Assembly: GCF_000299935.1 (NCBI RefSeq)
Contig: NZ_AMRL01000002.1
Location: 124,001-188,000 of the forward strand
Length of the DNA stretch: 64,000 bases
Direction: 5' to 3'
Source of the DNA: Oceanibaculum indicum P24
GTDB lineage: Bacteria; Pseudomonadota; Alphaproteobacteria; Oceanibaculales; Oceanibaculaceae
Shown: positions 5,096 to 54,989 of the stretch, piece after piece
Layout: the number at the start of each line of letters is the position of its first letter
Position numbering within the stretch: the first letter of the stretch is position 1
The notes under the pieces: generated by a model
Told to the model about the DNA's origin: nothing
Databases searched by the model: none
Seen by the model: only the letters and a program-made list of their open reading frames with translations
Translations under genes and position numbers: made by a program

Positions 5096-6604
5096 ATGGT
5101 CGCGCGGGTCAACACGGTCGCGTTCCAGGGCATCGAGGTGCTGCCGGTCGATGTCCAGGTGCAGATGGCGGCCGGCCTGCCCGCCTTCACCATCGTCGGA
5201 CTGCCGGACAAGGCGGTCGGCGAAAGCCGGGAGCGGGTACGCGCCGCCCTGGGCGCCATGGGGCTGGCGCTGCCGCCCAAACGCATCACCGTGAACCTCG
5301 CCCCCGCCGATCTGCTGAAGGAAGGCAGCCATTTCGATCTGCCGATTGCCGTCGGGCTGCTGGTCGCCATGGGCGTGCTGCCGGGCGAGGAGATATCCGG
5401 CTATACCGTGCTGGGCGAACTGGGGCTGGACGGCTCCATAGCATCCGTGGCTGGAGTGCTGCCCGCCGCCATCGGCGCCAGTGCGGAGGATCGCGGGCTG
5501 ATCTGCCCGGCGGCCTGCGGCGGCGAGGCGGCCTGGGCCGGGCGCATCGAGATCCTGGCCGCCCCCACGCTCCTGTCGCTCATCAACCATTTCAAGGGCA
5601 CGCAGGTTCTGACCCCGCCCGAGGCCAGGCTGGCCGCGGAGGAGGAACGCTATCCCGATCTGCGCGACATCAAGGGGCAGGAGACGGCGAAGCGCGCGCT
5701 GGAGGTGGCGGCGGCCGGCGGCCACAATCTATTGATGATCGGCCCGCCCGGCTCCGGCAAGTCGATGCTGGCGCAGCGCCTGCCGGGCCTGCTGCCGCCG
5801 CTCGACCCGGCGGAGGCGCTGGAGGTCAGCATGATCCATTCCATCGCCGGCCATCTGGAGGGCGGGCGGATGCGCCGGCGGCGGCCCTTCCGCGACCCGC
5901 ATCATTCCGCCTCGCTGCCCGCCCTGGTCGGCGGCGGCATAAGAGCGAAGCCGGGAGAGATCAGCCTCGCCCACAACGGAGTTTTGTTTTTAGACGAACT
6001 CCCCGAATTCGCGCGGGGCACTCTGGAATCCCTGCGCCAGCCGCTCGAATCCGGCCGTGCCGTGGTCGCGCGGGCCAATGCGCATGTGACCTATCCGGCA
6101 CGGGTGCAGCTGGTGGCGGCGATGAATCCCTGCCGCTGCGGCCATCTGGACGATCCGTCACTGACCTGCGGTCGCGCGCCGCGCTGTGCGCTGGACTATC
6201 AGTCGAAGATTTCCGGCCCGCTGTTCGACCGTATCGACCTGCATGTGGAGGTGCCGGCGGTCAGCCCTGCCGATCTGGCCCTGCCCAGCCCGCGCGAGGG
6301 ATCGGCGGAGGTGGCAGTGCGCATTGCGGCGGCGCGGGCGATCCAGCGCACACGCTATGACGGCACTGAAATCAGGGTGAACGCGCAGGCCGACGGCACG
6401 CTGCTGGAGGAGGTCGCAACCCCCGATGCCGCCGGCAAGGCGCTGCTGACCGAGGCGGCGGAGCGGATGAAGCTGTCAGCGCGCGGCTATCACCGGGTGC
6501 TGCGCGTGGCCCGCACGCTGGCCGATCTCGCCGGTGTGGAGCAGGTGGGGCGTATCCAGATCGCGGAGGCGCTCAGCTACCGCCGCATCGCGCCCGGACG
6601 GTAA
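5096..6604 (+). CDS. YifB-family Mg-chelatase-like ATPase (ComM-type)
   Basis: A 502-residue AAA+ protein with the three-part YifB/ComM layout. The N-terminal Lon-protease-like fold runs to about residue 180 (AFTIVGLPDKAVGESRERVR). The central ATPase has Walker A IGPPGSGKSMLAQRLP and Walker B NGVLFLDELPEF, then AAMNPCRCG, and the protein ends in the C-terminal Mg-chelatase domain (ARGYHRVLRVARTLADL). ComM is a branch-migration helicase used in natural transformation. The start follows GGGGAGGGCGG closely. Confidence 0.93.
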   Translation: MVARVNTVAFQGIEVLPVDVQVQMAAGLPAFTIVGLPDKAVGESRERVRAALGAMGLALPPKRITVNLAPADLLKEGSHFDLPIAVGLLVAMGVLPGEEISGYTVLGELGLDGSIASVAGVLPAAIGASAEDRGLICPAACGGEAAWAGRIEILAAPTLLSLINHFKGTQVLTPPEARLAAEEERYPDLRDIKGQETAKRALEVAAAGGHNLLMIGPPGSGKSMLAQRLPGLLPPLDPAEALEVSMIHSIAGHLEGGRMRRRRPFRDPHHSASLPALVGGGIRAKPGEISLAHNGVLFLDELPEFARGTLESLRQPLESGRAVVARANAHVTYPARVQLVAAMNPCRCGHLDDPSLTCGRAPRCALDYQSKISGPLFDRIDLHVEVPAVSPADLALPSPREGSAEVAVRIAAARAIQRTRYDGTEIRVNAQADGTLLEEVATPDAAGKALLTEAAERMKLSARGYHRVLRVARTLADLAGVEQVGRIQIAEALSYRRIAPGR

Positions 6605-42227: not shown

Positions 42228-42991
42228 TTAATGCCGGTTCAGAACTTCAAGGGCGCCGGTCTCCAGCGCTCGGACCTGGTCGAACAGGTCTTTCGTATGG
42301 CGGATGTCCCGCTCCTGCCGGATGGCCCGAACAGCTGGCCAGTCCAGCCCCTGCCAGACAAGCAGCAGGCCGCCCGGATGGGCGACGTAGTGGACTCGCC
42401 AGGCGCGGTCGCAGGAGAGGAAGAGAACAAGGGCGTCCCAGCAGTCGCCCGGAATCGGAAACCCTTCCTCTTCCGCGTCTGCCGGAACGCCCGCCGGCGC
42501 CAGGTCCAGTACCGCAGGATCGATGCCCCAGAAGGCCAGATCGTCCAGCAGCTCCTGGTCTGGCGACGGCGCCTGGCCGGCATCGCCCCGCGCCCAAAGC
42601 CGGCCGGCCTCGATCAGTTTCCCAGGCGACGGTTCCGGCGGCTTTCCGGCTGCAGGCTGCCGACATAGGCATCGAACAGCGCTGTCACCGCGAACTGGTT
42701 GTCCAGGATCAGCGTCAGGTTCTCGTCGTTGAACGGGACTTCCTTGCCGTCCGCATCCTTGATGTCGCGCCAGCCCAGGATCGCCTCGCGCAGGGTCTCG
42801 CGCGCCAGGCCGGCCAGTTCGTCCTCGGTGGACGAACGCGCCTTGCGGCGAAGCTCTTCCGCCTCGGAGATCGAGAGGGCGCGGAAGGTGGCGTAGAAGC
42901 TCTCCTTCAGCCGCCGGGACGCCTTCTCCGGGTCCGGCATGTCGACGGTGATCCGCAGCTCGTACTTCAGCTCTTCGCGCAGGGTGAACAT
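42228..42991 (-). CDS. Tail assembly chaperone gpGT, -1 frameshift product
   Basis: If ribosomes slip by -1 at 42617-42623, the 125 residues of gpG continue for 129 more (LIEAGRLWARGDAGQAPSPD onward) to a TAA at 42228-42230, giving 254 residues. The extension is protein-like throughout and matches the DUF1799 pattern seen before tape-measure genes in other phages (CWDALVLFLSCDRAWRVHYV and GLDWPAVRAIRQ). It has no ATG, GTG or TTG near its beginning, so it can hardly be made separately. The G/GT pair of lambda works the same way. Confidence 0.8.
42614..42991 (-). CDS. Tail assembly chaperone gpG
   Basis: A 125-residue acidic-helical protein (MFTLREELKYELRITVDMPD, LSISEAEELRRKARSSTEDE, FNDENLTLILDNQFAVTALF) between the tail tube and the tape-measure gene, the usual place for gpG. 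It ends ...RRNRRLGN, where the last two codons are the slippery GGA AAC followed by TGA. It should coat the tape measure during tail assembly and then leave. Confidence 0.8.
   Translation of the reverse strand: MFTLREELKYELRITVDMPDPEKASRRLKESFYATFRALSISEAEELRRKARSSTEDELAGLARETLREAILGWRDIKDADGKEVPFNDENLTLILDNQFAVTALFDAYVGSLQPESRRNRRLGN
42617..42623 (-). other. Programmed -1 frameshift slippery site G-GGA-AAC
   Basis: On the minus strand the heptamer GGGAAAC is in the correct X-XXY-YYZ phase (ctG GGA AAC TGA) and the zero-frame stop follows directly. It differs from the lambda G/GT site GGGAAAG only in the last base. Both P- and A-site tRNAs can re-pair after slipping. Confidence 0.8.
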
Positions 42992-43003
42992 GGAAGTTTC
43001 TCC

Positions 43004-43936
43004 TTACTTCACGATGATGGCGATCTCGTCGTCGCCGGTGTTGGGCAGCATGCGGAAGGGCTGCGATACCTCGGTAATGCCCTGCTGCTGGCTATAGGTC
43101 GGCCGGCCCAGCTCCACCTTCGCGCCCGAGATTTCGACGATGTTCCCGGCCGTGGTGCCATGGACGCAGGACAGCGCCACCAGGGTCCGCGCTTCGGCCA
43201 GGGCGAACGGGTTGAAGGTAGCCAGCGCCGGCATCTCATAGACCACCGTGCCGGTGACAGCGCGGTCGGGCGTGACGATCTCCTCCTGGTTGACCAGGAA
43301 CCGGCCCGCCTGCTGGTTGTTCACGTTGATGCGCAGGGAGCGCATCACCAGGTCAACGCCGTTCAGCTGGAAGGTCGGGGTGTCGGCATTGGTCACCGGA
43401 CGCGGCGTCTTGAAGCCGGTCAGGGTCACCGCCGGCAGCGCCGTATCGGTCACCGTCTGGAACAGGCCCAGAAACTGGAAGTTGAACAGCGGCAGCTCGC
43501 CGACCGCGAGGTTGATGTCGAAGCTGCCCCGGCTGCCCAGCAGGGCGTGCTTCACGCCGTCCAGCTGGAAATACTGCGTCGCCGACTCCTCGTCGGTGGA
43601 CACCGGGTCGTACTGCACGTCGGTAGCCTCGGTCACCGTCTCGGCGAAGCCGCAGGCGCGCATCAGGGCGGCCCAGGCCGGTGCGGTACCGGCCGCGCCG
43701 CTGCCGGCGATCTCCACGCCGTAGTTCAGGCCGACATGGGTGTTGACCAGGATTTCCGGCCGCGCGCCCTTGTACGGCTGGTCGACCGCACGCTCGACGC
43801 TGCTGCCTTCCATCGGCCGGATTTCGGCATTGACCGACAGGATCGCGTCGGTGGCGCCGGCCGGCTCCGCATCGACGCCATAGGTATCCTCGACCTTGGC
43901 CAGGATCGCCTTCAGCCGCCACTTCTTGCCCGCCAT
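43004..43936 (-). CDS. Major tail tube protein
   Basis: A 310-residue beta-rich protein (KWRLKAILAKVEDTYGVDAE, APAWAALMRACGFAETVTEA, GTVVYEMPALATFNPFALAE). ALMRACGFAE and the N-terminal AILAKVEDTYG are typical of tail tube proteins of siphophages and of B3-like transposable phages. No sheath gene accompanies it, supporting a non-contractile tail. Confidence 0.75.
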   Translation of the reverse strand: MAGKKWRLKAILAKVEDTYGVDAEPAGATDAILSVNAEIRPMEGSSVERAVDQPYKGARPEILVNTHVGLNYGVEIAGSGAAGTAPAWAALMRACGFAETVTEATDVQYDPVSTDEESATQYFQLDGVKHALLGSRGSFDINLAVGELPLFNFQFLGLFQTVTDTALPAVTLTGFKTPRPVTNADTPTFQLNGVDLVMRSLRINVNNQQAGRFLVNQEEIVTPDRAVTGTVVYEMPALATFNPFALAEARTLVALSCVHGTTAGNIVEISGAKVELGRPTYSQQQGITEVSQPFRMLPNTGDDEIAIIVK

Positions 43937-45610: not shown

Positions 45611-46069
45611 TCAGCTTTCGGACTTCTTGCCGCCGCGCTTCGGCTTGTCGGCCGCGCCGGCAGCTTCCTTCTCAGCTGCGGCCTTGTCGGCGGCCTCCTT
45701 CTCGGCAGCGGCGCGAGCAGCGGCTTCCTTCTCCTCTGCCTCCTTGGCGGCAGCCTGGTCAGCAGCCTCCTTCTCAGCAGCAGGCCGCTCGGCGGCCTCC
45801 TTCTCGGCAGCGGCGCGCTCGGCGGCTTCCTTCTCCGCCGCCGCCTTTTCCGCAGCTGCTTTCTCGGCGGCAGACTGGTCGGCGGCCTTCTTGCCGTCCT
45901 TGCCCTCATATCCAGGCGACGGATCGTCCTTCGTCAGCTCGATGGCGCGGGCGCCCACCAGCGCCGCCCCGTCGCGCTCCGACAGATCGATGACGCCAGG
46001 GGCGATGACCGTGCCGGCGGGGATGATCTCCCCGCCGTGCTTCAAGGGCGTGTTGATGCGGATGTTCAT
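45611..46069 (-). CDS. Phage protein with Ala-Glu-Lys repeats
   Basis: A 152-residue protein. The first 50 residues form a small folded head (NTPLKHGGEIIPAGTVIAPG, VIDLSERDGAALVGARAIEL) common to minor phage structural proteins; residues about 65-140 are tandem variants of AAAEKEAAER, a predicted long charged helix, ending in a basic tail (PKRGGKKSES). The repetitive DNA is coding repeat, not CRISPR. Confidence 0.7.
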   Translation of the reverse strand: MNIRINTPLKHGGEIIPAGTVIAPGVIDLSERDGAALVGARAIELTKDDPSPGYEGKDGKKAADQSAAEKAAAEKAAAEKEAAERAAAEKEAAERPAAEKEAADQAAAKEAEEKEAAARAAAEKEAADKAAAEKEAAGAADKPKRGGKKSES

Positions 46070-54216: not shown

Positions 54217-54566
54217 TTGCGCGCTCCCTCAAGCTCGTTCTCGGTCAGCAGCTCAACCCGGCGCGACAATGTCTCAATCGATTTGCTCAGGTGCTTGCTG
54301 GCTTCAGCCAGCGCAGCCGTGTTCTCCCGCAGGTCGGCCACGTCACGAACGGAGGGCAGGTTGTTAAGCCGCTCCGCGATCACCCTCTGTTCGGATTGCA
54401 GCATCTGGATAGCCTCCGCGCTTTTCCCATGCGCCGTCGCCAGCTCTTCGACGCTCTTCTTGCTGGCGAACACGCGGCTGAAGCGCCACATGAGCCAGCC
54501 GAAGCCGACATTGGCGGCGGCAAGAATGAGCGGCCAGTTCTCGCGAATCTGATCAAGGATGGTCAT
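54213..54566 (-). CDS. Mu gp25-like DUF2730 protein
   Basis: A 117-residue protein with an N-terminal membrane anchor (NWPLILAAANVGFGWLMWRF) and a long coiled coil (EELATAHGKSAEAIQMLQSE, ASKHLSKSIETLSRRVELLT). This is the DUF2730 layout. It may act in lysis or DNA packaging; nothing specific is known. Confidence 0.82.
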   Translation of the reverse strand: MTILDQIRENWPLILAAANVGFGWLMWRFSRVFASKKSVEELATAHGKSAEAIQMLQSEQRVIAERLNNLPSVRDVADLRENTAALAEASKHLSKSIETLSRRVELLTENELEGARK

Positions 54567-54769
54567 TTGGCCGCGCGCTCCCTCAGCTCCTGGCAGTCGA
54601 TGCAGGTGACCGCCCAGGGCGCGGCCTTCAGGCGCGCGGGCGGGATATCGTCGCCGCAGTCAGCACAGATCGAGGCCGCGCTGGCACATGGCAGGGCGCG
54701 AACAGACGCCAGCGCAGCATCGCGCTGCGCTTCTTCCAGTGCCTGCGCCTGGTCGCCGATGTCAGCCAT
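54563..54769 (-). CDS. TraR/DksA-type zinc finger protein
   Basis: A 68-residue protein starting at 54769. After a short helical arm (DQAQALEEAQRDAAL) it has ICADCGDDIPPARLKAAPWA and TCIDCQELRERAAK, the C4 zinc finger of TraR/DksA. Such phage proteins can bind the RNA polymerase secondary channel. The gene has 4-8 bp overlaps on both sides. Confidence 0.88.
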   Translation of the reverse strand: MADIGDQAQALEEAQRDAALASVRALPCASAASICADCGDDIPPARLKAAPWAVTCIDCQELRERAAK

Positions 54770-54989
54770 CCGCGTCCTCGCCGCCCTCGTCTGCGCCACC
54801 CGCGCCGTGCAGCCTGGCGCGCAGCTCGGCCGTGATCGCATTGATCTCCGCCCATTCGGCATCGGTGGGGTTGCGGCCTTCGGCGACCATCTGCTCGATG
54901 GCGGCCTTGGCGCGCAGGGCGGCCGGGATGCCGGCGCTGATCGCATTGGCGATCTGGATGCCGAGCAGCAGCAGCTGCGCGGCGTTCAT
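54762..54989 (-). CDS. Small phage protein, unknown
   Basis: A 75-residue protein with a hydrophobic N-terminal helix (AAQLLLLGIQIANAISAGIP), an amphipathic middle (DAEWAEINAITAELRARLHG) and an acidic Gly-rich tail. Between the holin-like and DksA-like genes. Could belong to the lysis set; no family recognised. Confidence 0.6.
   Translation of the reverse strand: MNAAQLLLLGIQIANAISAGIPAALRAKAAIEQMVAEGRNPTDAEWAEINAITAELRARLHGAGGADEGGEDADG

Follow-up and report, generated by a model that had tools for sequence, protein, structure and literature searches.

The G/GT frameshift, through which many tailed phages obtain two versions of a tail-assembly chaperone from a single gene, is well known, reportedly from Xu et al. 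2004. In phage lambda a -1 shift on a GGGAAA-type heptamer, in a gene that lies before the tape measure gene, yields a short chaperone and an extended one. A prophage in the genome of Oceanibaculum indicum P24 carries a gene pair that shares this layout and its predicted way of working but differs in the details: the lambda chaperone belongs to the Phage_TAC_2 family and has the heptamer GGGAAAG with a stop codon 15 nt past it, whereas the prophage chaperone belongs to Phage_TAC_4 and has the heptamer GGGAAAC with the stop codon at 0 nt. An earlier note on this DNA, made from the sequence alone, had called the frameshift lambda-type; the term holds for the way of working and fails for family membership, and the lambda G profile (PF06894, Phage_TAC_2) gave no match to the prophage G at E 0.1, nor was any member of that family found in the P24 genome. 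Mean heptamer-to-stop distances in other sets are 26 and 36 nt (PMC10885494). For gp18/gp19 of Burkholderia phage KL1 (PMC3483164) and gp12/gp13 of Acinetobacter phage Loki (PMC5313236), GGGAAAC or AAAAAAC has been predicted immediately before the first chaperone stop.

Results

The stretch of DNA that we analysed (the window) comprises 64,000 nt from O. indicum P24 and contains most of a prophage related to phage Mu. The Mu-type identity proposed by the earlier note is borne out by a MuA-type transposase, a MuB-like ATPase, a Gam-like protein and a Mu-type portal. Judging from a copy in IMG/VR, the prophage would extend from ~31279 to ~72729 in window numbering, past the window end, its share of the window being 31279-64000. 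Beyond that end (L214, up to ~7300) lie the MuA-type transposase, the MuB-like ATPase and an S24-type repressor, and beyond these prophage genes is mutS (L214, 8109-10997). We also noted a DksA-like zinc-finger protein within the prophage (54563-54946, minus strand; phrog_54) and, at 45611-46069 on the minus strand, a 152 aa protein adjoining the head-tail adaptor whose C-terminal half is rich in Ala/Glu/Lys repeats (AAEKEAA units).

Between the tail tube and tape measure genes lie two overlapping frames, G and T, in the arrangement of G/GT pairs (Table 1). Gene G ends in CTG-GGA-AAC-TGA, with no gap between GGGAAAC and TGA. Recomputing the frames reproduced what had been reported previously, namely a 125-codon G (ORF 42991-42614, TGA included) in which G-GGA-AAC lies in phase immediately before TGA, and a -1 frame that stays open over 42617-42228, encodes 129 residues and gives a 254-residue fusion (125+129=254). 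From the shift, this frame runs from a CTG at 42617 to a TAA at 42230-42228. The remark that no ATG, GTG or TTG lies near the start of T can be extended: there is none anywhere in the -1 frame, which is open far upstream, to 43091, and in which CTG, ATC and ATT are the sole near-start codons. The second part has no initiation site of its own, the near-cognate CTG at the junction not being conserved as CTG.

Table 1. Coordinates of the G/T locus and its neighbours, in window numbering.
Feature	Position	Strand	Basis
Tail tube protein (Phage_tube_2)	43004..43936	-	PF18906 1e-22; upstream of G
AGGAG ribosome-binding site of G, 8 nt before ATG	43000..43004	-	read from sequence
Gene G, tail assembly chaperone, zero-frame product 125 aa (Phage_TAC_4)	42614..42991	-	ORF; PF08748 E=2e-4; phrog_569 2e-18; AlphaFold2 pLDDT 86
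Slippery heptamer G_GGA_AAC	42617..42623	-	X_XXY_YYZ phase; this heptamer type in 134/134 homologous loci
Zero-frame stop TGA of G, flush against heptamer	42614..42616	-	flush in 42/48 clusters
Predicted 3' stem-loop, possible stimulator, begins 4 nt past heptamer	42595..42612	-	MFE fold
T part, -1 frame, 129 residues + TAA, DUF1799, without ATG/GTG/TTG	42228..42617	-	PF08809 E=4e-4, below gathering score; phrog_680 2e-10; pLDDT 85
Tape measure protein, 1530 aa	37623..42215	-	phrog_973; start 12 nt past T stop

Searches with DUF1799 and with aligned T parts as queries raised the number of loci at which both G and T were readable to 134 (a scan of genome contigs with the window T as query found no relatives by that method). 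At every one of these loci T is read one base back from G, in frame -1, and an in-phase slippery heptamer is likewise present at all 134. The heptamer is A_AAA_AAC or G_GGA_AAC except for one AAAAAAG, one AAAAAAT and one GGGAAAA/AAAAAAA run. At deviating loci profiles confirmed both G and T, with T always in the -1 frame. Loss of the heptamer where both parts are conserved, which the earlier note had said would tell against a frameshift, was found at none of the 134 loci. The conserved heptamer and the constant frame of T support the reading put forward in that note, and we regard it as very probable on the evidence of sequence that gene G is translated in two ways, giving gpG and, through a -1 slip on G_GGA_AAC, a 254-residue gpG-T. 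In ten sequences besides that of the window, from RC1, RS1, RcapMu, RcWaterboi, S-CBS1, Medea1, phiES15, PHB10, Vibrio vB-Vv-ZX4290 and an IMG/VR relative, TGA or TAA follows GGGAAAC or AAAAAAC with no gap.

Three loci considered as candidates for having no heptamer (L137, L143 and L043) were rejected, as an in-phase AAAAAAC is present farther from the stop. L137 and L143 are two copies of one locus in one genome, with a G frame that continues for 96 nt past the heptamer and so adds a 32-residue tail to G. At two other loci (L131 and L132) T has an inserted low-complexity repeat of ENCLQ or QNTC type units, which separates the N-terminal part from the DUF1799 core.

To assess the placement of the stop codon, we grouped the T parts by single linkage at 60% identity into 48 clusters, 47 of them starting with Leu. 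The stop is flush to the heptamer in 42 of the 48 (TGA in 30, TAA in 9 and TAG in 3). T nearly always starts with Leu, and the C of its CTN codon is also the final base of the heptamer. From the first two residues of T and local codon usage, one would expect a flush stop in 20.6 of the Leu-starting clusters, and it is seen in 42 (P ~2e-15 with clusters taken as independent, a figure overstated because of shared ancestry). The bias is visible in a preference for AGR over CGN arginine codons, six of eight Arg cases being flush where 0.6 were expected, and also in the use of CTA, a rare Leu codon, when the following codon begins with G. Flush placement of the stop is thus under selection across the TAC_4/DUF1799 loci. 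In the comparison family TAC_7 the heptamer is mostly TTTTTTN and lies 3-39 nt before the stop, and in TAC_11 it is mostly absent, so flush AAC heptamers are no general feature. Within TAC_18, AAAAAAC or GGGAAAC is flush to TGA in two of the four loci found, as well as in phage KL1; one of the two is elsewhere in the P24 genome. This locus, L219 (G000:C20, ~5820-6053), belongs to a second prophage-like region; its T part is of the Phage_TAC_18 family and its AAAAAAC directly abuts TGA, so that the layout recurs with another T family.

The same junction codons bear on the possibility that T is a separate protein, begun by coupled re-initiation at a CTG that overlaps the stop of G (CTGA), the heptamer being incidental. 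CTG is indeed the first T-frame codon in the window, and the T coding sequences of phages RC1 and RS1 are annotated from that CTG, but the corresponding codon is CTA, CTC or CTT, none of them a usual start, in 17 of the 47 Leu-starting clusters. With these codons at the junction, and with T homology beginning at that residue, a dedicated T start codon cannot be general, and homologues with a T start codon of their own, which the earlier note had also named as contrary evidence, did not appear in a survey where T was always in the -1 frame. Re-initiation would, moreover, leave the conserved in-phase XXXAAA before the CTG unexplained, and we consider it very unlikely.

Heptamers of this kind are rare in other genes of the phage. 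Leaving the G/T junction out of the count, XXXYYYZ heptamers of any kind occur in phase five times in 6233 codon positions (15 prophage-region ORFs), and GGGAAAC, AAAAAAC, GGGAAAG and AAAAAAG occur in phase at none of the 6233 codon positions of the phage genes; GGA accounts for 5.6% of their Gly codons. The heptamer at the end of G is therefore beyond chance.

Matches to Pfam and phrog families and to structure models agree with the previous identification of G as a tail chaperone and of T as DUF1799-like. G scores 22.0 bits against PF08748 (Phage_TAC_4), barely above the cut-off of 21.1 bits, and T scores 21.1 bits against PF08809 (DUF1799), below the curated cut-off of 26 bits. The homology of T to the DUF1799 family is also backed by phrog_680, by the T of phage RC1 and by a common motif, LxxAARxW...TQWR...GLDY. 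Among the best viral matches of the AlphaFold2 model of T are entries named "tape measure chaperone" and "tail assembly chaperone" (E-values 0.006 and above), and two of these entries are of fusion length, at 277 and 259 residues. Searches of solved structures by sequence and by fold gave no significant match for G or T.

The low Pfam score of T might be taken to mean that T has decayed, that the heptamer is left over by chance and that gpG is the sole product. However, every relative keeps the frame open, the structure model is confident, and substitutions relative to the nearest relative (IMG/VR 3300032081, 86-87% identity), in which the heptamer is kept, concentrate on third positions of the T frame. 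In the T part, 6, 4 and 21 of them fall on the first, second and third codon positions of the -1 frame (p=2e-4), indicating that T is constrained as a protein read in that frame, and none falls between -5 and +33 around the start of the heptamer. That T has decayed is accordingly a reading to which we attach hardly any weight.

In the 48 clusters, the sole peak of predicted RNA stability lies in the 40 nt that follow the heptamer (mean z -1.64); at other positions z stays near -0.2 (range +0.1 to -0.6). The downstream RNA of the clusters is also more stable than synonymous variants that keep the T protein (mean z -1.88, p=5e-10), with control stretches at -0.3 to -0.55. Across the family, downstream RNA structure is thus selected beyond the needs of the protein. 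For the window alone the picture is mixed: z is -1.5 against synonymous variants but -0.2 to -0.4 against dinucleotide shuffles, so that its downstream RNA is no more stable than the shuffled sequences. RNAalifold found no consensus fold shared across clusters and pair statistics were weak, suggesting that stem registers differ between phages. A Shine-Dalgarno-like element upstream of the heptamer shows a weak family-wide excess. Polymerase stuttering on the purine run during transcription, for which the runs of six or more A in AAAAAAC relatives might speak, can be practically dismissed, as GGGAAAC in the window contains no homopolymer longer than three and as both the immediate stop and the heptamer's codon phase are conserved and the downstream RNA structure is selected.

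Discussion

The sequences show the anatomy of this locus and its conservation; they also show that selection acts on the heptamer, on the flush stop and, across the family, on the RNA structure downstream. From these we infer that the shift occurs, and with it a likely course of events, including its efficiency and the roles of the proteins. Most ribosomes would read G through to the TGA and produce the 125-residue chaperone gpG. A minority would slip back one base on G_GGA_AAC, probably aided by the stem-loop just downstream, with tRNA-Gly and tRNA-Asn moving in tandem off GGA-AAC and onto GGG-AAA; CTG would then replace TGA as the next codon and the product would be gpG-T. By analogy with lambda, G may be expected to coat the tape measure protein and T to recruit tail tube subunits.

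With a stop codon immediately after the heptamer, slippage should compete directly with the release factor. We tentatively suggest, as a possibility that we hold somewhat less probable than its opposite, that TAC_4/DUF1799 chaperones, and some TAC_18 chaperones, rely on a form of -1 frameshifting that is distinct in being termination-competed, in which a stop kept directly behind an AAC-type heptamer sets the gpG:gpGT ratio and ties it to release-factor activity. RF2 would then be the relevant factor where the stop is UGA, as in this prophage, and the family survey leads to a simple prediction open to test: the amount of gpGT should depend on how much release factor is present. The site A_AAA_AAC is reportedly much less slippery in E. 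coli than A_AAA_AAG (PMC5009743), so the rate of the shift could be low. Haloarchaeal viruses do use AAC-type sites, however, and such sites are also reported for phiCbK-type phages (PMC5009743, PMC3556154).

The survey shows an AAC-type heptamer kept flush to the stop throughout an entire class of phage tail chaperones, with selected RNA structure downstream. It also mends a gap in annotation, in that the T half, having no ordinary start codon, is missed or mis-started in deposited relatives. We found no statement of a family-wide flush AAC-type site in the open-access literature searched, which we do not offer as a claim of priority.

The Rhodobacter/Rhodovulum phages RC1 and RS1 have the closest named T (37% identity) and a near-identical GGGAAACTGATCGAGGCCGG junction, but there T is annotated as a separate CDS from CTG and not as a frameshift product. 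These deposited T genes (L005 2513 and L006 2513), which begin at the CTG in the overlap, are probably mis-annotated frameshift products. Rhodobacter phage RcapMu, and also RcWaterboi, resemble the prophage in being Mu-type and in having a pair of tail chaperone and DUF1799 genes with GGGAAAC flush to TGA; the RcapMu record carries the remark "potential -1 frameshift" on the same gene pair (gp49/gp50), although its G is only ~30% identical to that of the prophage and its T is annotated from a GTG well downstream. In E. coli and Klebsiella phages (Drexlerviridae, Dhillonvirus), DUF1799-type tape measure chaperones match the T part from its first residue in ~1100 records, and AAAAAAC is flush to TAA in the two loci read, but these phages are not Mu-type. 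Loki gp12/gp13, compared by its published prediction, is alike in its flush heptamer, and KL1 differs in that its T part is Phage_TAC_18 and not DUF1799. The prophage G/T pair is a fresh instance of the known G/GT frameshift, with a flush arrangement reported earlier singly for KL1 and Loki, and the less expected point of the case is that the flush stop is family-wide.
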